Of a DNA stretch of 64,000 nt, positions 3,421-31,723 are shown piece by piece. The notes under the pieces are model-generated. The model made no database searches and had not been told where the DNA came from. It saw only the letters and a list, made by a program, of their open reading frames with translations. How positions within the stretch are numbered: the stretch's first letter is position 1; each line of letters starts with the position of its first letter. Both the position numbers and the translations under genes were made by a program. The stretch comes from a virus. Location: the IMG/VR virus record IMGVR_UViG_3300027793_000075, positions 1 to 64,000 of that record; one strand, written 5' to 3'.

Positions 3421-4011
3421 ATGAAATTACAATATCAACTTGATAAAGATAGTGCCGAGTGGTGGATGCAATATGAAATTGCACGTTATGGAAATTGTGC
3501 AGCAGAAAGTATTGGATATTGTTATGCTGATGCATTTGAAATGAGTGTATTAACTGCATTGAATCGCAATATAGTTGTTGACCACGAAACTATACAAAAG
3601 TTTTCCAAGATAACCGTCAACAACGTTTTTCCATTGTTTGACGCATCGCATGAATTTTATATTTTTGTAGTTGCCTATGGCAGTGAAATACTTAAATTTT
3701 TGACTGATTACAAAACAAAATCAAACAAATATTTAATTGATATAATTTCCAAATTTGTAACAACCAACTATTATTACTATTTTTGTTCATTTGGTGATTT
3801 GGTATTATTGTTTCCAGACAATACTGTGGATGACAGTGCCCAATTGGAAAAATGGTGTGATGAAGTTATTGCTGCCAATCCAAAAGCAGTTGCCGATTAT
3901 AAAGGCGGCAAAATGGGAGCATTGAACAGTTTGAAAGGTCAAGTAATGAAACTAAGCAAAGGCAAAGCCAAAATTGATATCGTTGGAGATATTCTATTAA
4001 AGAAAATATGA
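3421..4011 (+). CDS. Hypothetical protein
   Basis: 196 residues, not recognised. It has no signal peptide or membrane segment; the middle is rich in Tyr and Phe (a YYYYF run near residue 118) and the C-terminus is Lys/Gly rich. It ends with an ATGA overlap with the next gene, indicating translational coupling. The alternative is any of the many poorly characterised T4-type accessory proteins. Confidence 0.65.
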   Translation: MKLQYQLDKDSAEWWMQYEIARYGNCAAESIGYCYADAFEMSVLTALNRNIVVDHETIQKFSKITVNNVFPLFDASHEFYIFVVAYGSEILKFLTDYKTKSNKYLIDIISKFVTTNYYYYFCSFGDLVLLFPDNTVDDSAQLEKWCDEVIAANPKAVADYKGGKMGALNSLKGQVMKLSKGKAKIDIVGDILLKKI

Positions 4012-4202
4012 CAGAAAAAGATATAGACAAAATAGCAAGACAAAGTGCCAAAAAATTGAAATTACCATCACGTCGCATGAGAATTTTAAAAGAATGGTGG
4101 GATCCCATATATTGGACTATAGTGTTAATCACTACTTATTGGTATTGTCGTGTAATGTATAAAATTGTTCCAAAAAAATATAAATGCAAATATAAATTTT
4201 AA
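4008..4202 (+). CDS. Small membrane protein
   Basis: 64 residues with a basic N-terminal half, then a hydrophobic stretch IYWTIVLITTYWYCRVM (about residues 36-52) and a Lys-rich tail, so a single-pass inner-membrane protein is likely. It overlaps the preceding gene by ATGA. Function unknown; a host-envelope role is conceivable, but nothing identifies a holin or an exclusion protein. Confidence 0.6.
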   Translation: MTEKDIDKIARQSAKKLKLPSRRMRILKEWWDPIYWTIVLITTYWYCRVMYKIVPKKYKCKYKF

Positions 4203-4264
4203 TACACATATGAAGTTTGTCATAATTAATAATATGCAACTGACTGTATTTAACCCAAATTAAT

Positions 4265-4561
4265 ATGAAGAAAAACACAAATAAAACAGAAAAAAAGAAA
4301 ATGTATTGTCTAAGAATCATGGACGATTATGGTGAATTGTGGCTTGGGCATAACAAAGAACCAATTGCATTCGTTCATTGTAATGATGCAAAATTCAGAA
4401 AAGAATATCAATCATTTATTTTTGATTATCTAAATGTTGATTTGATTTGTGAAAGCATCTATGTAGAAGATGATGATTTACAAGAAAAATTGTGGAATGA
4501 AAGCGGCGATGAAAATGCAATTGCCAAATTATTAAAAGATGAAATTGATAAATTGCCATGA
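4265..4561 (+). CDS. Hypothetical acidic protein
   Basis: 98 residues, not recognised. The chosen ATG gives a Lys-rich N-terminal extension; a second ATG at 4301 (MYCLRIMDDYG) would give a more compact protein and could be the true start. The C-terminal half is strongly acidic. It ends with ATGA overlapping the next gene. Confidence 0.55.
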   Translation: MKKNTNKTEKKKMYCLRIMDDYGELWLGHNKEPIAFVHCNDAKFRKEYQSFIFDYLNVDLICESIYVEDDDLQEKLWNESGDENAIAKLLKDEIDKLP

Positions 4562-4842
4562 AAATTATAAGTAACAATACGCGATATGGTTATACAAAAA
4601 ACACATTGCGTGTTCATGCTAGAGAATTAAACAAGTTTAACGAAGGATATGAAAACAATATCCTTTTATGTGAAGGGTATATTACTGCACTTTTTAAAAA
4701 TAAATTAATCAATAATTGTGAAAAAAAATGGCTACATAAAATTTATGTAGAACATGTTTCTAAGGACGATGGATTGGGGGAAAGATATGGAATTAACAAA
4801 AGCGGAGAAATTGAAGATTACAACGAAGATGAACTAACATGA
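4558..4842 (+). CDS. Hypothetical protein
   Basis: 94 residues, not recognised. It sits in a chain of four genes joined by ATGA overlaps (4265-5638), so it is probably co-translated with its neighbours. There is no membrane segment; the C-terminus is acidic (EIEDYNEDELT). Confidence 0.6.
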   Translation: MKIISNNTRYGYTKNTLRVHARELNKFNEGYENNILLCEGYITALFKNKLINNCEKKWLHKIYVEHVSKDDGLGERYGINKSGEIEDYNEDELT

Positions 4843-5039
4843 ATGATGATGAAATAATTAAAAAAAATAAAGAAATAGCAAGACAGTATGGTTATACTGA
4901 TTTTGATTTTCTTTTGGGTGACATTATAAATTCCAATGGAGATAGAGAATATGAAGGTCGGAAATGGCACATGTCAAAACCCGGAGAAGATAAATGGCAT
5001 ATATTACCAGACTATATATTTTCTAATAAGATATTATGA
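4839..5039 (+). CDS. Small hypothetical protein
   Basis: 66 residues, coupled by ATGA at both ends. A helical acidic N-terminus is followed by an aromatic segment (GRKWHMSKPGEDKWH). Not recognised. Confidence 0.6.
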   Translation: MNDDEIIKKNKEIARQYGYTDFDFLLGDIINSNGDREYEGRKWHMSKPGEDKWHILPDYIFSNKIL

Positions 5040-5638
5040 AAGTAACGGTTGCTCCAATTTATGAAAAACAAAATGATCCAAATGGAGTATATATCAATAC
5101 AACAAGTCGGTCTACTGATGAATGGACTAAGCAATTAAGTCCTTTTTATTTGGGGCCATGTGAATTGTATGAAGGTATAATTGCTAAAAATATGGAAAAT
5201 GCATGGCAATTCAGTAAAGTATATGATTGTCATGTTGATGCCAATGATGATCCAACAATACAATATTTTGAATGGGCCGTAAATGGATGGAATAGTAATT
5301 ATGCTCATAGATATCCAATGGGCAAAGGAGCGAAACCTAAATACAGTTACTGGAATGAACATAAATTATCTTATATTGAAGCTCGAAAACATATTTATGT
5401 TCCATTATACGCAAAGGCAGTTCTTAAAACGGATGCATATAAAAAATTACAAGATATTATAGCATCTGATAAACATTTATATTTGTTGGATTTTGATGCA
5501 TACAAGCACCGTGAACAAAATATGACAATTACTGATGTATTGAATTGCCCTGATAAAAAAATGGGCCATGCATTTGTGTTGTTTATGATGTTAACAGAAG
5601 ATAAAGCACTACACGATTGTAATTTAATATACAAATAA
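5036..5638 (+). CDS. Conserved phage-type protein of unknown function (possibly DUF6939-like)
   Basis: 200 residues. The segments FYLGPCELYEG, ENAWQFSKVY and EARKHIYVPLYA look like a conserved family found in phages and bacteria, which I associate tentatively with DUF6939; no function is established. It is last in the ATGA-coupled chain and is probably cytoplasmic, with no signal or membrane segment. A family search would settle the name. Confidence 0.55.
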   Translation: MKVTVAPIYEKQNDPNGVYINTTSRSTDEWTKQLSPFYLGPCELYEGIIAKNMENAWQFSKVYDCHVDANDDPTIQYFEWAVNGWNSNYAHRYPMGKGAKPKYSYWNEHKLSYIEARKHIYVPLYAKAVLKTDAYKKLQDIIASDKHLYLLDFDAYKHREQNMTITDVLNCPDKKMGHAFVLFMMLTEDKALHDCNLIYK

Positions 5639-10484: not shown

Positions 10485-11078
10485 ATGTTACCACTAGTTT
10501 TTTATGAAAGTGAGCAATTTGTAAAATTGCGAACCGAATTGATTGCACGATACAACGAAACGCATCGTTACTATCATAATATTTTTCATATTAACGACAT
10601 GCTTAATATTGCAATGGGTTGCCGCCCATCAAATATTGGCATCGCAAATTTGATTATTTGGTATCATGATGCAATTTACGATCCTCAACGTAAAGACAAC
10701 GAAGAAAAAAGTGCCGAGCTTGCAATTGATCAATTAAAAGATCATCTTTCCAGTGATGATGTAGATACAATTACTAGTGGAATTTTGTTGACCAAGCATC
10801 AGTTCAGTAGCAACATGCTTACAACCGATATGTCCATTATTATTGATTCAGATTTGTATATTCTGAGTCACGATTGGTGTTATACAGCATATGCCCGTGC
10901 TATTCGTAAAGAATATTCATATTTGAATAATGCTGAATATATTGCTGGACGAAAACGATTTTTGGAAAAAATGTTGCGTAAAAATTCTTATTATGGAGTT
11001 TTAAAGACTCGTAATTACATGGCAAAGAAAAACATGCAGATGGAATTGGATTATCTAAATAAAAACGTACTACTATGA
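10485..11078 (+). CDS. HD-superfamily metal-dependent phosphohydrolase
   Basis: 197 residues. HRYYHNIFHINDML (about 27-40), WYHDAIYDP (59-67) with the HD pair at 61-62, NEEKSAELA, TKHQ and an IDSDLYIL segment match the predicted HD hydrolases of COG4339. HD proteins hydrolyse phosphate esters or (cyclic) nucleotides with bound metal; the substrate here is unknown. The gene lies in the operon leading to CoA synthase, and nucleotide or cofactor turnover is a reasonable guess. Confidence 0.8.
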   Translation: MLPLVFYESEQFVKLRTELIARYNETHRYYHNIFHINDMLNIAMGCRPSNIGIANLIIWYHDAIYDPQRKDNEEKSAELAIDQLKDHLSSDDVDTITSGILLTKHQFSSNMLTTDMSIIIDSDLYILSHDWCYTAYARAIRKEYSYLNNAEYIAGRKRFLEKMLRKNSYYGVLKTRNYMAKKNMQMELDYLNKNVLL

Positions 11079-11263
11079 AATTGAATAGAACCAACGTGGC
11101 CCTCGCCGCAAGTGCGGCACTTGTTGCAGCACCAATTATTGTTGCTGAACATGCCCATCGTGGGCTAAATACATCAAATATAACAAATGAACTAAGTATA
11201 TTTTTCATGAAATGTGCATTTGGATTGTTTTTGCTATGTTTTTGCATGGAGAAGGAACAATGA
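11075..11263 (+). CDS. Small membrane or exported protein
   Basis: 62 residues. There is an N-terminal hydrophobic Ala-rich segment (VALAASAALVAAPIIVA) and a second one near the C-terminus (FFMKCAFGLFLLCFCM). It overlaps both neighbours by ATGA, and the Shine-Dalgarno of the CoA synthase gene lies in its last codons. Function unknown. Confidence 0.55.
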   Translation: MKLNRTNVALAASAALVAAPIIVAEHAHRGLNTSNITNELSIFFMKCAFGLFLLCFCMEKEQ

Positions 11264-12381
11264 AAATCTGTATTTATCCCGGCAGTTTTGACCCTGTAAC
11301 ATACGGTCATATTGATATTATTGATCGTGCATGCAATACATTTGATAAAGTTATCGTTGCTATTGGCATCAATCCAAGCAAGAAATATACTTTTAGTGTA
11401 GAAGAGCGTATTAAATTCATCAAGAAATCTGTAAAACGACCATTCAAAGTGGAAGTTATGAGTTTTACAGGATTGCTTGCCGATTTTGCTTATCAGCAAA
11501 ATGTAAAAACCATTATCAAAGGTGTTCGTAGCAATCAAGATTTTGATTATGAAAGATTGTTACATGAAGTGACTGTTACACAACAGGCAGGTATTGATAC
11601 ACATATACTAATTGCCGATCAAAAATTGAGTCATGTAAGTAGCAGTGCCGCAAAAGAATTGTGCAAGCACCAAGGATTGGTTCACGAATATGTTCCTTAT
11701 TGCGTAAAAGCAGCATTGGAACAAGAAATCAACAATCAATTTATTCTTGGAATCACTGGTTCGATTGGAATGGGCAAGAGTTATGTAACTCAACAATTGA
11801 TTGAACATTTTTCCAAACGAATGCACGTTTTGCATGTAGACTTGGATACAATTGCACATGAATTGTATACACGAACTGAGCCAGTTTATATTGATTTCCA
11901 AAACACTGTCAAAGACGCATTTGGATTGACTGTGGGTGATTCAGTAGAAATGCGTAAGAAACTTGGAAATATTGTTTTCAATAATGAAAATGCGTTAGCT
12001 AAACTAAATAATCTTGCACGGCAACCATTACTTACATTGATGCGTCAAAAAATGTATGGTTTTCAAGGATTGATTTTGTTGAATGGCGCATTGTTGGTCG
12101 AAGCCAATTTTCTTCCATTATGCAACAATAATGTTGTAGTGGTAAATACAGGTATTACTGAGCAAATTGAAAATCTAAAAAATAGAGGATTAACAATTCA
12201 ACAAATTCAGCGTCGTATTAATTGTCAATTGACTAATAATGAAAAGATCAACATCATCAATGATGCAATTTTTAATAATCTCTATGGAACACTAATGCCA
12301 TATAGCAATAGCAAAAATAACAAACCTGAAGTATTTGAGTCATTGACTCGACTTGTTTCTGAAGTAATTCACTTACGATAA
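11260..12381 (+). CDS. coaD-coaE: Bifunctional CoA synthase: phosphopantetheine adenylyltransferase fused to dephospho-CoA kinase
   Basis: 373 residues from ATG 11260, preceded by GGAGAAGGA, one of the few good Shine-Dalgarno sites here. Residues 1-155 are CoaD: PGSFDPVTYGH with the T/HxGH nucleotidyltransferase motif, IKGVRSNQDFDYE, and the HVSSSAAKEL signature. Residues about 160-373 are CoaE: P-loop GITGSIGMGKS (164-174), DLDTIAHEL, and a C-terminal Q-x(5)-E-x(5)-DAIFNN region. Together they convert 4'-phosphopantetheine to CoA. CoaD and CoaE are separate in most bacteria; a fusion in this order is the animal COASY arrangement. Both domains keep their signature residues, so activity is likely. 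Confidence 0.9.
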   Translation: MKICIYPGSFDPVTYGHIDIIDRACNTFDKVIVAIGINPSKKYTFSVEERIKFIKKSVKRPFKVEVMSFTGLLADFAYQQNVKTIIKGVRSNQDFDYERLLHEVTVTQQAGIDTHILIADQKLSHVSSSAAKELCKHQGLVHEYVPYCVKAALEQEINNQFILGITGSIGMGKSYVTQQLIEHFSKRMHVLHVDLDTIAHELYTRTEPVYIDFQNTVKDAFGLTVGDSVEMRKKLGNIVFNNENALAKLNNLARQPLLTLMRQKMYGFQGLILLNGALLVEANFLPLCNNNVVVVNTGITEQIENLKNRGLTIQQIQRRINCQLTNNEKINIINDAIFNNLYGTLMPYSNSKNNKPEVFESLTRLVSEVIHLR

Positions 12382-14369: not shown

Positions 14370-15302
14370 ATGAATGTTAAACAACTCGCGGATGTGGCCG
14401 TTATTGTTGGCCGTTATCAAACGCATACACTTCACTCGGAGCAAATCCGAATGATTGATGAAGTGGTAAAGCGTCACAATCACACAATCATTGTAATCGG
14501 AAACAGTTTGATGCGTGGCACCATTGCTAATCCATTGGATTTTCGTGCCCGTAAAACAATGATTCAGGAAAAGTTTCCAAAAATTGATATTCTCTATATC
14601 AACGATATTCCCAAGGATAATGCTCTTTGGAGCAACAATCTTGACAAGCTAATCAAGGACAATATTCGCGCAAACGAAACGGTTGCCATCTATGGCAGCA
14701 AAGATACATTTATTACCAAGTATAATGGTAAATTTGCTACGTTTGCATTTGAAGCTAGTAGCTTTGTGAGTGCCGACGAGATTCGTCGTCAAGCATCTAC
14801 CAATTATCAGCCAAATGAACAATATCGTGCTGGTATCGTAGCGGCACAAGCCAATAGATTTCCCACTGCATATCAAACTGTTGATATTGCAATCGTGGAT
14901 GATAATGGTCGTTTGTTGATGGGTCGCAAGCCAAATGAAACCAAATGGCGTTTTATTGGAGGATTCAGCGATCCTGCGTCTACTTCACTGGAATCCGATG
15001 CTCGGCGTGAAGCTCAAGAGGAAACCGGTGTTGAAGTTGATGAAATCACTTATTTGGGTTCCATGAAAATCAATGATAGCCGTTATATGTTTGAAGTGGA
15101 TTGTATCAAAACTGCATTTTTCGTAGGAAAATACATTTATGGACGGCCACATGGAAATGATGATATTGCCGAAGTCAAGTGGATTGCTATCAAAGACTTG
15201 AATAAGGATGATATTGGCGAATTTCACCATGTTTTGGTTGACATACTCATGGAGAAATTCGTGAACAACCCGGAATTGTATAAAAAGTACGTAGCAAATT
15301 AA
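14370..15302 (+). CDS. nadM: Bifunctional NMN adenylyltransferase / Nudix hydrolase
   Basis: 310 residues. Residues 1-165 are an NMNAT of the NadM type: VGRYQTHTLH (13-22) replaces the usual GRFQPxHxGH, keeping the two histidines, and SADEIRR (134-140) takes the place of ISSTxIR. Residues about 170-305 are a Nudix domain with REAQEETGV (213-221). The same fusion (NatV) is known in vibriophage KVP40. The NMNAT half makes NAD+ from NMN and ATP; the Nudix half may hydrolyse ADP-ribose or other dinucleotides. It heads a block with a CinA-like fusion and nicotinamide phosphoribosyltransferase. The altered HxGH glycine (to Leu) needs testing. Confidence 0.85.
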   Translation: MNVKQLADVAVIVGRYQTHTLHSEQIRMIDEVVKRHNHTIIVIGNSLMRGTIANPLDFRARKTMIQEKFPKIDILYINDIPKDNALWSNNLDKLIKDNIRANETVAIYGSKDTFITKYNGKFATFAFEASSFVSADEIRRQASTNYQPNEQYRAGIVAAQANRFPTAYQTVDIAIVDDNGRLLMGRKPNETKWRFIGGFSDPASTSLESDARREAQEETGVEVDEITYLGSMKINDSRYMFEVDCIKTAFFVGKYIYGRPHGNDDIAEVKWIAIKDLNKDDIGEFHHVLVDILMEKFVNNPELYKKYVAN

Positions 15303-15761: not shown

Positions 15762-16877
15762 ATGAAAGAAAATTATATTAAAGAATTACAAAATTGTGGC
15801 AAGATGTTTTTTATTGCCGCAACTGGTGGTGGAACAAGTTTTATTGGAGATTTCCTTAAAATTCCCGGTGGCAGCAAGTGTATTGTCGGTGGGTATGTTC
15901 CATACGCTATCGAAGCCACAAATAATTTTATTGGTGGCAAATTAGACAAATATGCAGATGCAAACGCTGCACGTCGTCTTGCAGTGGCAAGCTATGAAAA
16001 TTGTCTAAAAATCAAAAATACAACTACAAACAATTGTGTTGGCGTTGGTATTGCGTGTAGTCTTGTAAAAGACAAAGAACGTGATGGACGCGAACATCAT
16101 ATTAACGTTGCTGTTCATACGTATAATGAAACGTTTGGCATGAGCGTTGTTCTTAAAAACAGCAAACTAAATCGTGCCGAAGAAGAGGAATTTGTCAATG
16201 ATTTGACACTATTTGTGCTCGCCAATAAATATTGCAAGAACATTGATCATGAATGGGAAATTATCCATCAAATGATTTATTTGGATCATGGTGGTGAAGC
16301 AACCACTTTTGGTGAATACAACCGTATGGTTGCATGTGATTTGTACTGCGATGCAATCAATGAAATTGAAAACAATGATACAATTGTTATTTATCCCGGC
16401 AGCTACAATCCATTGCACGATGCACACAAAGAAATTTATCGTTTAGCACACAAAATTACAGGTCTTCCTGTATTTTATGAATTGAGCATTACCAATAGCT
16501 ACAAACCTAGCATGGATTATGTAGATTTGGAAAATCGTTACAAACAGTTTAATAATGTTAATTGGATTAATTCGGTAATCCTAACCAAGGCTCCACGCTT
16601 TGTTGACAAGGTAAATCTGTTTAAAAAATATTTTAATCCAAAGGAAATTATCATTGTTGTGGGTGCTGATACATGGGAACGTGTATATGATGATGCCGCA
16701 CACAAAAATGGAGATATTAAGTTTTTTGAAGACAATAATGTAAATTTCTTGGTTTTTGGCCGCAATACCGAAATTAAAAATCAAGATAGCGTATTGTTCA
16801 TTAAAAATGATTTGGCACTGAATTACAACAATAACATTAGTTCGACTGCCATTAGAAAAGTTCAAGCGAGTGCTTGA
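15762..16877 (+). CDS. CinA-C-like domain fused to a nicotinate/nicotinamide-nucleotide adenylyltransferase-like domain
   Basis: 371 residues. Residues about 14-165 resemble the CinA C-terminal/PncC fold: ATGGGTSFIGD, PGGSKCIVGGYVPYAIEA. PncC deamidates NMN to NaMN. The Ser of GGS and the Tyr of PYA are kept, but the Lys expected a few residues after the Tyr appears to be Thr, so activity is uncertain. Residues about 205-370 are a nucleotidyltransferase: IYPGSYNPLHDAH with an HxxH-type motif, VVGADTWERV, and ISSTAIRKV at the end. It may adenylate NMN or NaMN. It has its own promoter and a leader shared with the next gene. NAD synthetase, needed for a deamidated route, is not in the window. 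Confidence 0.75.
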   Translation: MKENYIKELQNCGKMFFIAATGGGTSFIGDFLKIPGGSKCIVGGYVPYAIEATNNFIGGKLDKYADANAARRLAVASYENCLKIKNTTTNNCVGVGIACSLVKDKERDGREHHINVAVHTYNETFGMSVVLKNSKLNRAEEEEFVNDLTLFVLANKYCKNIDHEWEIIHQMIYLDHGGEATTFGEYNRMVACDLYCDAINEIENNDTIVIYPGSYNPLHDAHKEIYRLAHKITGLPVFYELSITNSYKPSMDYVDLENRYKQFNNVNWINSVILTKAPRFVDKVNLFKKYFNPKEIIIVVGADTWERVYDDAAHKNGDIKFFEDNNVNFLVFGRNTEIKNQDSVLFIKNDLALNYNNNISSTAIRKVQASA

Positions 16878-16952: not shown

Positions 16953-18380
16953 ATGAATACAAACATTACTATTTGCACTACTGAATGGGGTAAGAACATT
17001 TGTCTTACTACCGATAGCTACAAACTCAACCACTGGAATCAATATCCTATTGGCACACAGTACGTTTATGCTTACTTTGAATGCCGCAAGGGTGCAAAAT
17101 TTGCTGATTCTCCTTTTTTCAGCCTTCAGCCTATTATTCTGAATCATCTTGTTGGTGTGGTTGTAACCCGTGAAAAGATTGAAAAGGCTGCTCGCCTTTG
17201 CAAGGCTCATTTCGGAAACGAAACTTATTTTAACCGTGCTGGTTGGGAACACATTCTCAATGTCCACGGCGGAAAACTTCCTATTCGTATTCGTGCCGTT
17301 GAAGAAGGAACGGTTGTTCCGGTCAATAACGTATTGATGACCATTGAAAACACTGATCCACAGTGCTATTGGCTCACCAATTTCCTAGAAACTATTCTAA
17401 CTCACGTTTGGTATGGTACTACCGTTGCTGCTCTTAGCCGTGAAGTTAAGCGAAAGATCAAGAAATTCCTCAAGAAGAATTCTGATGGTGGAATGCTTAA
17501 TTTCTTTCTGCATGACTTTGGTTATCGCGGTGCTTCTTCGTATGAAACTGCCGGAATTGGTGGTGCCGCGCATTTGATCAATTTCCTTGGCACCGATACT
17601 GTCGTCGCTATGGAAACTGCGATGAATTACTATAATGCGAATCTGGATACTCTTGCATTCAGCGTTGCTGCCACTGAACACAGCATTATGACTTCGATGG
17701 GTGCTGCGGGTGAAGATGGTGTTGTTGAACATTTGCTCAACGAATATCCCGATGGCATTCTTTCTTGCGTTGCGGATAGCTACGATATTTACAATTTTGT
17801 TGACAATATTGTAGGAAAGAAGTTCAAGGATCGTATTCTTGCTCGTAATGGTGTATTTGTTGTTCGTCCTGATTCGATTACGCCTACACATCAAACTCCT
17901 GAAGAGGAAATGGTTTGGATTATTGAGTCTTTGTGGAACAATTTCGGTGGCACCGTAAATAGCAAGGGATACAAGGTTATCAATCCAAAGGTTCGTGTTC
18001 TTTGGGGTGACGGTATTGATATTGATGGAATTGAGAAGATTCTGATCGCTGTTGATGCTGCTGGATTTGCGACCGAAAATATTGCTTGTTTCGGTATGGG
18101 TGGTGGACTGTTGCAGAAGGTGAATCGTGACACTCAGCGTTGCGCTTTCAAGTCGTCTGCTCAATGCCGTGATGGCGTTTGGTACGATATTTTCAAGAAT
18201 CCGAAGGATGCCACCAAGGCTTCCAAGAAGGGTAAGCTCAAGTTGACCAAGATTAATGGTGAATTTGTCACGGTCAATGAGAATGAACCCGGCGAGGATT
18301 ATTTGAATGTTGTATTTGAGAATGGTGAGTTGGTCAAGTTTGTTGACTTTGACACCATTCGCAAGAATGCGGCACTCTAA
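16953..18380 (+). CDS. nadV: Nicotinamide phosphoribosyltransferase (NAMPT type)
   Basis: 475 residues, full length for the family. TDSYKLNHWNQYPIG near the N-terminus, YAYFECRKGAKF, FGYRGASSYETAGIGGAAHL (about 190), TEHS with the catalytic His (about 243), RPDS (about 306), GDGIDIDGIE and FGMGGGLLQK are all signatures of NAMPT/NadV. The usual reaction is nicotinamide + PRPP to NMN. A close homologue in phage NARP1 instead joins nicotinamide to ADP-ribose pyrophosphate, and sequence reading cannot separate the two. Lysine is largely AAG, and the gene has its own promoter and conserved leader, suggesting strong expression. Confidence 0.92.
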   Translation: MNTNITICTTEWGKNICLTTDSYKLNHWNQYPIGTQYVYAYFECRKGAKFADSPFFSLQPIILNHLVGVVVTREKIEKAARLCKAHFGNETYFNRAGWEHILNVHGGKLPIRIRAVEEGTVVPVNNVLMTIENTDPQCYWLTNFLETILTHVWYGTTVAALSREVKRKIKKFLKKNSDGGMLNFFLHDFGYRGASSYETAGIGGAAHLINFLGTDTVVAMETAMNYYNANLDTLAFSVAATEHSIMTSMGAAGEDGVVEHLLNEYPDGILSCVADSYDIYNFVDNIVGKKFKDRILARNGVFVVRPDSITPTHQTPEEEMVWIIESLWNNFGGTVNSKGYKVINPKVRVLWGDGIDIDGIEKILIAVDAAGFATENIACFGMGGGLLQKVNRDTQRCAFKSSAQCRDGVWYDIFKNPKDATKASKKGKLKLTKINGEFVTVNENEPGEDYLNVVFENGELVKFVDFDTIRKNAAL

Positions 18381-18443: not shown

Positions 18444-18719
18444 ATGAAAAACAAATTTAAAACTATTTTTATTCGATTCATACTGAATGTAACTGGATAC
18501 AATATTCCAATTACACTAGCAAATTTTTATCATCCGGGTAGAACAGATACAATCAATTTGATTGATTTTGTATTGAATACATCAGACAATTCACGAATTA
18601 TTCGTGTGGATGCCGATTGTAGCAACGCTAAATGTGTTTGTTGTAAAGACAAAGGTGTGCTAAAGAATGTATATAACCAAATCGGTCATTACAATACGTA
18701 TGACCGTAACAAAAAATAA
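18444..18719 (+). CDS. Hypothetical cysteine-containing protein
   Basis: 91 residues from the ATG at 18444. A basic hydrophobic N-terminus is followed by a C-terminal cluster DCSNAKCVCCKDKG that may bind metal. Not recognised. It ends 4 bases before the RlmN-like gene and could be translated with it. Confidence 0.5.
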   Translation: MKNKFKTIFIRFILNVTGYNIPITLANFYHPGRTDTINLIDFVLNTSDNSRIIRVDADCSNAKCVCCKDKGVLKNVYNQIGHYNTYDRNKK

Positions 18720-18723
18720 TTTT

Positions 18724-19656
18724 ATGTGGAATGATATTAAACGAATTGATTCTAGCGACAAAAATGTTGCTAAATTTGTCTTTAAGAAAGACACTGCTGT
18801 TGCTGAAGCTGTACTTTACAAATATCCTACTTATGAGGATCGTACTGTAATTTGTTGCTCTACCCAAAGTGGTTGTGCAATGGGTTGCCGCTTTTGTGGA
18901 ACAGGTGATTATTTTGTACGCAGTTTGACTGCCGACGAAATTGCACATCAACCTGAATATTTGTTGCAGGAAACCAACATTGATCCGGCAACTATTAAAA
19001 AGCTGCAAATCATGTTCATGTCAATGGGCGAGCCAATGAACAACTTTAATGAGTTGTCCGTTGCTCTGCACAGTCTATATGCAAAATATCCAAATGCACG
19101 TTTGCTTATTAGTACAAGTGCCCCACGTCAATTCAATAAGTTTTCTGAACTTGAAAAATTGAGTGTGGAAATTCCTACTATTGGATTGCAATTTAGTGTT
19201 CATGAAAGCACAGATGAAGAGCGTAAAAAGCTAATTCCTGCGGCAACAATGACACTGCAAGAAATTGCAAATACAGGAAATTCTTGGCACAAGGCAACCG
19301 GTCGCAAGCCCTTCTTCAATTATTGCTTGCACGATAAAAACAATAGTCAAGCGGATGTAAACAGACTATTGGCTAAGTTTGATCCTGCTATTTGGGAAGC
19401 TACTCTTAGTGTTATTTGTGAACGTGATGAACATGTTGCTGCTGCAAATGAACGTCAACGTGAATTGGCTAGTGATTTTGCTGGACTTATGTTGCAAAAA
19501 GGATACAATGTTAGAGTATTTAACCCTGCCGGTCAAGATGACATTGGTGGTGGTTGTGGGCAACTATGGTTTGTTCAAGATTGGATGCGTAATAATCCTA
19601 CTCTAGCTAAACCTTCTGCCGGTAATGGATTACCAAAAGTACATACACCGAATTGA
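18724..19656 (+). CDS. RlmN/Cfr-like radical SAM RNA methyltransferase lacking the N-terminal domain
   Basis: 310 residues from ATG 18724, placed 4 bases after the upstream stop. The CxxxCxxC cluster is GCAMGCRFC (Cys 51, 55, 58), followed by MSMGEPMNNF (GEP motif) and a C-terminal DIGGGCGQLW, which carries the methyl-transfer cysteine of RlmN. RlmN methylates C2 of A2503 in 23S rRNA and A37 in some tRNAs. Bacterial RlmN has about 75 more residues before the cluster (an RNA-binding accessory domain), so target choice may differ. It sits between NAD genes and NADAR without its own promoter. Confidence 0.85.
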   Translation: MWNDIKRIDSSDKNVAKFVFKKDTAVAEAVLYKYPTYEDRTVICCSTQSGCAMGCRFCGTGDYFVRSLTADEIAHQPEYLLQETNIDPATIKKLQIMFMSMGEPMNNFNELSVALHSLYAKYPNARLLISTSAPRQFNKFSELEKLSVEIPTIGLQFSVHESTDEERKKLIPAATMTLQEIANTGNSWHKATGRKPFFNYCLHDKNNSQADVNRLLAKFDPAIWEATLSVICERDEHVAAANERQRELASDFAGLMLQKGYNVRVFNPAGQDDIGGGCGQLWFVQDWMRNNPTLAKPSAGNGLPKVHTPN

Positions 19657-20135: not shown

Positions 20136-20660
20136 ATGATTATTATAGAAGATGCAGAAGCATATGATGGTAAGAAAAATTTAGAAACTGATACTCATTT
20201 CTATTTTTGGACAAATTGGTTGAGTAATTGGAAGGTTTGTAAAATTATCGATCCAATTACAAATCTAGAATTCACTAGTACCGAACAAATTTATATGTGG
20301 TATAAAGCTCATTTTTTTAATGATGCTGAAACCCGCAAACAACTGGAAGCAAAGTTGACTCCTAAACAAGCAAAGGATTTGGGTCGAGTTGTAAAGAATT
20401 ATCAAGATGATTTGTGGGAATGTGTTCGGTTTGATTATATGGTATATTCAAACTATCTGAAATATACACAAAATCCCGATCTAAAAGAAAAATTATTGGC
20501 AACCGGCGAAAAAGTGCTTGTGGAAGCAAGTCCATATGACAAAGTTTGGGGAGTTGGACTATTGGCAAATAACCCACTTATTTTAGATGATAAAAACTGG
20601 ACAGGTCGCAACTTGCTTGGTAAAAGTATCATGAAAGTACGCACCATGATTAAAAAGTAA
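20136..20660 (+). CDS. NADAR-domain protein (YbiA-like)
   Basis: 174 residues, nearly all one NADAR domain. Key segments are FWTNWLSNWK, FTSTEQIYMWYKAHFF (Glu50, Lys57) and SPYDKVWGVG with a C-terminal WTGRNLLGK helix. NADAR proteins cleave N-glycosidic bonds in NAD-linked metabolites, and some remove ADP-ribose from guanine in DNA, countering DarT-type toxins. Among NAD-rebuilding genes and with a macro domain 7 kb downstream, an anti-defence role is likely. It is in a tight run from 18444 to 22003. Confidence 0.88.
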   Translation: MIIIEDAEAYDGKKNLETDTHFYFWTNWLSNWKVCKIIDPITNLEFTSTEQIYMWYKAHFFNDAETRKQLEAKLTPKQAKDLGRVVKNYQDDLWECVRFDYMVYSNYLKYTQNPDLKEKLLATGEKVLVEASPYDKVWGVGLLANNPLILDDKNWTGRNLLGKSIMKVRTMIKK

Positions 20661-30943: not shown

Positions 30944-31723
30944 ATGAAACTTAAATTCATAGGCGTCGGCGGTGCGTTTGCGCCAATTTCAATCGGCAAT
31001 TCAAATATACTTCTTTCCCATAACGGAAAGAATATGCTAATTGATTGTGGAGTGACTGCACCATTTATTCTTCGTGATGAATGGAACATTCAACATTCGG
31101 ATATTGATAGTATTTGGGTGAGTCATCTCCATTCCGATCATATTGGTGGATTGGAGCATTATGCATTTTTGCGTTATTTTTCTCCGGTTCGTGACCAGCA
31201 AGGAAATGTAATCAAACCGAAACTTTACACGATTCGACATCTAATGCAAGAATTGTGGGATAATTCTCTCAAAGGCGGATTGGAGTCTGTTGAAGGTAAA
31301 ATTACCACACTCACTGATTTTTTTGATTGCAAACCAATTGAGCCAAACGATAATTTTGTGTGGCAAGGCTATAATTTTCAGCCGGTCCAGACAATTCATG
31401 TAATGGCTGGATATATTTTTAGATACAGTTATGGGTTGTTGATAACAAATCCAGAAACAAAGAAGAAAACGTTTATAACCACGGATACACAATTTAGTCC
31501 GTATCAACTTCATAAGTTTTATGAAATGTCTGATATCATTTTCCATGACACAGAGACTCTTCCATTTAAATCTCATGTTCATGCTCATTATGAAGATTTG
31601 AAAACGCTGGATGCACCAACACGGGCCAAGATTTGGATGTACCATTATGCAAAGCCAATCGAATCATGGGAAGCAGATGGATTCGCAGGATTTGTAAAAA
31701 AGGGTCAAGAATTTGACATATAA
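30944..31723 (+). CDS. Metallo-beta-lactamase-fold hydrolase
   Basis: 259 residues. HLHSDHIGG (61-69) is the zinc motif; LIDCG, TTDTQF, a second Asp, and HAHYEDL later in the sequence complete the site. The shape is that of RNase Z/cyclic-nucleotide phosphodiesterase-type MBL proteins rather than beta-lactamases. Phage MBL enzymes include Apyc1, which destroys cyclic nucleotide signals of Pycsar defence; that assignment is possible but not shown. Its promoter predicts a leaderless early transcript. Confidence 0.8.
   Translation: MKLKFIGVGGAFAPISIGNSNILLSHNGKNMLIDCGVTAPFILRDEWNIQHSDIDSIWVSHLHSDHIGGLEHYAFLRYFSPVRDQQGNVIKPKLYTIRHLMQELWDNSLKGGLESVEGKITTLTDFFDCKPIEPNDNFVWQGYNFQPVQTIHVMAGYIFRYSYGLLITNPETKKKTFITTDTQFSPYQLHKFYEMSDIIFHDTETLPFKSHVHAHYEDLKTLDAPTRAKIWMYHYAKPIESWEADGFAGFVKKGQEFDI

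Follow-up and report, generated by a model that had tools for sequence, protein, structure and literature searches.

The DNA analysed here (the window) comprises positions 1 to 64,000 of an 85,566-bp contig, IMG/VR record IMGVR_UViG_3300027793_000075 (G000). The contig is regarded as viral because it is an IMG/VR record and the window encodes a terminase, a portal protein, a tail sheath, RIIA and RIIB; the terminase shares ∼54% identity with its counterparts in Microcystis phage Mel-JY01 and Flavobacterium phage immuto. On the plus strand, a gene for an HD-superfamily hydrolase of 197 aa (positions 10485–11078; phrog_19425 ‘phosphohydrolase’, 1.1e-22) is followed by a small hydrophobic ORF of 62 aa (11075–11263, described from the sequence) and by a gene of 373 aa (11260–12381) that joins CoaD and CoaE homologues in a single open frame. 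The small ORF, which has no PHROG match, overlaps both neighbours by 4 bases (ATGA at each junction). It is absent from locus L002, the closest relative, where the HD and CoaD-CoaE genes overlap directly.

Translation of 11260–12381 (plus strand) is free of stops over all 373 residues. A longer ORF starting at 11212 is unlikely to be the true one, because the ribosome-binding-like stretch GGAGAAGGAAC precedes the ATG at 11260 and the relatives begin at this same position. Nearly no linker, only a few residues, separates the CoaD half (residues 1–157) from the CoaE half (160–340). We modelled the whole chain with AlphaFold using an alignment of 14 sequences drawn from the window and the fetched loci, and obtained a pLDDT of 90.3 and a pTM of 0.86. 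The sequence-only reading had described a phage CoaD and CoaE in one 373-residue frame; the intact frame, scores above both NCBIfam equivalog cut-offs and the pLDDT of 90 bear this out.

Compared with L002, dN is low relative to dS in both the CoaD half (dN 0.059, dS 0.383, dN/dS ∼0.15) and the CoaE half (dN 0.069, dS 0.537, dN/dS ∼0.13), so that both are constrained. Purifying selection on the two halves is comparable to that on the adjoining HD gene (dN 0.079, dS 0.525); the corresponding values for the nicotinamide phosphoribosyltransferase (NAMPT) gene of the window are 0.036 and 0.433. The C-terminal tail (residues 341–373, positions 12280–12378, plus strand) is variable, with 55% identity to L002 and a dN/dS of ∼0.31.

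The CoaD and CoaE halves of the fused protein

The CoaD (phosphopantetheine adenylyltransferase, PPAT) domain occupies positions 11260–11730 (plus strand). Residues 3–156 score 160.4 bits against the CoaD equivalog TIGR01510 (cut-off 103.3), Pfam PF01467 matches the N-terminal half (1.9e-20), and the best solved fold for the domain is E. coli PPAT 6b7a (TM 0.90 on the target, 39% identity). TYGH (14–17), K41, R90 and SSSAAKE (127–133) are all present, and T14, G16, H17, K41, R90, S127, S128 and K132 are invariant in an alignment of the first seven fusions. The T-x-G-H motif, the Lys, the Arg and the SSSxxK motif presumably have the active-site roles of their counterparts in E. coli PPAT. Judged by these residues, CoaD activity of the protein is very likely. 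CoaD is a hexamer, so that in the fusion six kinase domains would be expected to surround it.

The CoaE (dephospho-CoA kinase) homologue is encoded at 11737–12279 (plus strand). Residues 162–343 reach 89.4 bits against the CoaE equivalog TIGR00152 (cut-off 65.55), PF01121 is found in the C-terminal half (2e-21; 76.9 versus a cut-off of 27), and the alignment with solved dephospho-CoA kinases spans most of the length of this half. K173 and D196 do not vary across the 21 CoaE sequences compared; they correspond to Lys14 and Asp32 of Mtb CoaE, which are the P-loop lysine and the catalytic aspartate of that enzyme (PMC3019153). In the column table of 21 sequences, the position of the Mtb lid arginine, Arg140, is taken by Asn305 in the window. 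Arg140 is reported to be strictly conserved and essential; in the Mtb enzyme, its exchange to Ala abolishes activity and exchange to Lys leaves little of it (PMC3019153). The motifs of both enzymes had been called complete on first reading; this holds for the CoaD active site, the P-loop Lys and the catalytic Asp, and is too strong for the CoaE lid because of Asn305. For the same reason we term this half a CoaE homologue, whose kinase activity is likely but unproven and could be reduced or altered by the loss.

Asn or Val replaces the lid arginine in five of the 11 fusions (window, L002, L020, L022 and L061); the other six (L021, L023, L024, L058, L060 and L158) have kept it. An arginine at position 318 is present in all five fusions that lack the lid arginine and in one of the six that retain it. 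Arg318 could thus compensate for the loss, and relatedness alone could give the same pattern. The substitution could also mean that in the clade of this phage only the CoaD half is catalytic, dephospho-CoA being the product and the kinase half having a structural or regulatory part. The phage might then use CoaD alone, since PPAT by itself can attach phosphopantetheine to pppA-RNA and so give CoA-linked RNA (PMC10761072). We consider such a loss of the kinase unlikely, as the CoaE half is constrained as strongly as the CoaD half, neither K173 nor D196 varies, R319 is shared by all fusions and the lid arginine persists in the six fusions named above; the possible compensation by Arg318 in all five that have lost it points the same way.

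The order of a HIGH-type nucleotidyltransferase and a P-loop kinase is also the general architecture of NadR. Among the top BFVD fold matches is one annotated as NadR-like, and NAD genes lie nearby in the window; BFVD also contains a phage protein named dephospho-CoA kinase. The model scores largely rule out a NadR identity, with 25.9 bits for TIGR01526 against a cut-off of 341, whereas the cut-offs of the CoaD and the CoaE equivalog are exceeded, and we regard an NAD enzyme of this kind as highly improbable. In exceeding the curated cut-offs and in aligning with solved structures, each half resembles bacterial CoaD (TIGR01510) or CoaE (TIGR00152). The window differs from the bacterial enzymes in that both are fused in one phage protein and the CoaE lid arginine is missing in its clade.

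In animal COASY, PPAT and DPCK also share a single chain, arranged as in the fusion described here. The parallel with COASY that had been drawn from the sequence is correct for this order and for the kinase half, which aligns with the COASY structure 2f6r. It does not extend to the PPAT half, which is a bacterial-type CoaD unmatched to COASY. Because only the kinase half matches COASY, the parallel is best described as convergence, and on these matches the phage fusion is independent of the animal one.

Occurrence and origin of the fusion

CoaD and fusion profile scans, followed by classification with domain HMMs, yielded the same domain pair in nine IMG/VR contigs besides the window (L002, L020, L021, L022, L023, L024, L058, L060 and L061). 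A fusion of 85% identity is found on contig 3300032237_001169. The 1.17-Mb megaplasmid pPL1 of Pseudomonas silesiensis also carries the fusion (L158, NZ_CP143488.1 197401–198474; 38.5% identity over 354 residues by tblastn), and an HD gene lies ∼450 kb from it on the same megaplasmid. A frameshift or an assembly error joining two genes had been named as what would overturn the first interpretation. That the source is a metagenome contig is all that favours such an error; since nine independent contigs and a complete megaplasmid share the fusion, we exclude it as an explanation and give it a negligible probability.

All sampled fusions fall into one group of the CoaD tree (SH-aLRT 91), in which L002 stands in for the window, whose sequence had been removed as a duplicate. 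This fits a single fusion event; support for the group is less firm in the CoaE tree (72/87). Separate but adjacent CoaD and CoaE genes were found in L003, L045, L051, L082, L085 and L093, and in reverse order in L077. In the 735-kb phage LR756501 (L003) the two genes overlap (CoaD 3953–4402, CoaE 4399–5016). The label for adjacent genes requires six changes on the CoaD tree, so this adjacency either originated several times or has frequently disappeared.

Many phage CoaD contigs have neither CoaE nor HD on the recovered contig. When the fusion profile was run against 399 Bacillota genomes, the best matches listed covered CoaD alone and included no fusion. A CoaE-profile scan of viral contigs gave nothing beyond an already known relative. 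CoaE matches in Acinetobacter, Enterococcus and Listeria records of the ‘phages’ collection look like host-chromosome contamination and served only as bacterial references.

The upstream HD hydrolase and its association with CoaD

The protein encoded upstream of the fusion has the H...HD...D metal ligands and the all-helical fold of the HD superfamily: H31, H35, H61-D62 and D123 are invariant in a 10-row alignment, and the model, with a pLDDT of 91.9, is helical throughout. The nearest solved structures in a Foldseek search are HD proteins (prob 1.00, though with weak E-values of ∼0.02 and above), of the YpgQ, cyclic-nucleotide phosphodiesterase and yedJ types and not AcpH. We take its HD type to be COG4339, on which no paper was found in the open-licence PMC literature. 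Membership in the AcpH family was ruled out, as PF04336 gave no match at E values up to 10 and hhalign of the two families returned a probability of 0.4%. The HD family is essentially absent from 300 Bacillota genomes, with one weak match.

In L037/L038, L009/L083 and L143, CoaD continues at its C-terminus into a domain of this HD family; in L054 and a further eleven loci the HD domain precedes a CoaD-like domain, joined to its N-terminus. HD, CoaD and CoaE occur together in three further loci (L117, L143 and L150); in L117 and L143 CoaE comes immediately after an HD/CoaD fusion. HD lies downstream of CoaD in L024 and L143. On the 375-kb contig of L150, positions 3878–5417 show an apparent HD-CoaD-CoaE triple arrangement in which the HD part is split across two frames.

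An HD-anchored scan gave 57 phage HD loci, with CoaD fused or adjacent in 21. Four further HD contigs have a convincing CoaD elsewhere on the contig, and many phage HD contigs have none. Neither a convincing CoaD (0/14) nor the fused family was found in 14 NAMPT-bearing control contigs, several of which are short fragments. Fisher's test for the HD-CoaD association against these controls (p 0.001; 0.003 without the seed contigs) is indicative only, with a small control that includes short fragments and an HD query built from CoaD neighbours. On the CoaD tree the label for CoaD followed by HD needs three changes and that for the opposite order two; these several changes make more than one origin of the association probable. 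In L126 and L130 a CoaE-profile match on the opposite strand adjoins the HD gene upstream, with no CoaD nearby.

Taken together, the arrangements suggest that HD, CoaD and CoaE form a recurrent phage module for making or recycling CoA during infection. Viral coaD and coaE as such are already known. In snow viromes they are abundant viral metabolic genes alongside NAMPT and nadM (PMC11097641), and neither a fusion nor an HD partner is mentioned in the portion of that paper drawn on here. No report of a phage CoaD-CoaE fusion or of an HD-CoaD association was found in open-licence PMC papers.

Genomic context and proposed function

Genes of cofactor or counter-defence type near the fusion encode NAMPT, an NMNAT-Nudix type protein, PRPP synthetase, a NADAR protein and an Apyc1-like protein. 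Two of them are NAD cofactor genes on the plus strand: that for the NMNAT-Nudix type protein (14370–15302; PF00293 1.6e-13), which bifunctional NMNAT/Nudix models match below cut-off, and that for NAMPT (16953–18380; phrog_448 2.1e-157), which is found on six of the 10 fusion-bearing virus contigs. This neighbourhood is compatible with cofactor provision during infection; it does not demonstrate that any host defence depletes CoA. Phage NAD salvage by NAMPT and NMNAT-Nudix (PMC7824862) likewise represents viral cofactor provision with an adenylyltransferase fused to a partner. It differs in the cofactor, which is NAD there and CoA in the case of the window fusion.

Further genes of the window were recorded. 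The gene for the NADAR-domain protein (20136–20660; PF08719 2.8e-42), which is of the ADP-ribose processing type, lies a few kilobases from those for NAD salvage. A protein of 371 aa (15762–16877) has a NadD/HIGH-type nucleotidyltransferase domain in its C-terminal half only (210–366), its first ∼205 residues being without a Pfam match. The Apyc1-like anti-Pycsar protein (30944–31723; PF23023 97.6 bits, cut-off 50) belongs to a known type of phage counter-defence. An RlmN/Cfr-like radical SAM protein (18667–19656) stays far below the cut-offs (TIGR00048 104 bits, cut-off 290), and a phage protein with a C-terminal GatB/YqeY domain (PF02637 1.6e-16) is encoded at 3421–4011.

In our judgement the fused protein is probably a bifunctional CoA synthase, made by a T4-like phage, that forms a module with the upstream HD hydrolase; the latter would act in the same pathway. 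The fusion, the two folds, the conserved residues, the purifying selection and the recurrent linkage of HD, CoaD and CoaE are observed; what the two enzymes do, which substrate the HD protein acts on and how the phage gains are inferred as follows. The CoaD half would transfer AMP from ATP to 4′-phosphopantetheine, yielding dephospho-CoA, and the fused CoaE half would phosphorylate the 3′-hydroxyl of dephospho-CoA to give CoA, so that the phage could finish or recycle CoA during infection. Completion of CoA from phosphopantetheine, as proposed from the sequence at the outset, is still the simplest reading of a CoaD-CoaE fusion; its last step would depend on a kinase half that carries Asn305.

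The HD enzyme might free 4′-phosphopantetheine from a carrier in a reaction like that of AcpH, a step we put forward tentatively. E. coli AcpH is an HD-family ACP phosphodiesterase that releases 4′-phosphopantetheine, the substrate of CoaD, from holo-ACP (PMC8557913). Because AcpH belongs to the HD family, the HD link offers a concrete candidate for the earlier idea that CoA or ACP-derived phosphopantetheine is attacked. The phage HD family, although likewise of the metallohydrolase superfamily, has no sequence similarity to AcpH and lies nearer to the yedJ and cyclic-nucleotide phosphodiesterase types, so that supply of the CoaD substrate is only one option, and regulation or breakdown of a product is no less likely. 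The HD partner could be a regulatory or cleaning hydrolase that degrades the product, a damaged cofactor or a signalling nucleotide, as is thought for the Nudix domain fused to NMNAT. Besides the nearest structures, the NMNAT-Nudix, NADAR and Apyc1-like genes of the window favour this role, which we hold to be quite possible, if short of probable. The order HD-CoaD-CoaE in the window, L150 and L117 is that expected for supply, an argument that is weak either way given the downstream HD in L024 and L143. A regulatory HD enzyme would oppose the supply role alone and is compatible with the CoA synthase reading.

No match to an ACP or phosphopantetheinyl transferase family was found in the genome of the window. 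Two fusion-bearing contigs have acyl-carrier-protein-like ORFs (G003:C1:50505-50645 and G007:C1:64557-64685; PF00550 25.7 and 30.7 bits), and a phosphopantetheinyl transferase was not found in either. A bolder proposal, to which we give rather little credence, is that the HD protein represents a new phosphopantetheinyl hydrolase family that would remove 4′-phosphopantetheine from host ACP and halt host lipid synthesis while CoaD-CoaE turns the freed group into CoA, possibly also countering a CoA-depleting host defence.

NAD salvage genes are known from phages, which are also known to counteract defences that deplete NAD. Returning to the CoA synthase reading, a comparable module for CoA would bring a second central molecule into the contest over cofactors. 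The linkage of HD and CoaD places the phosphohydrolase family phrog_19425 in a pathway context and, as CoaD has been fused repeatedly to one particular HD family, the substrate of the HD enzyme and the role of CoA in infection can be tested directly.
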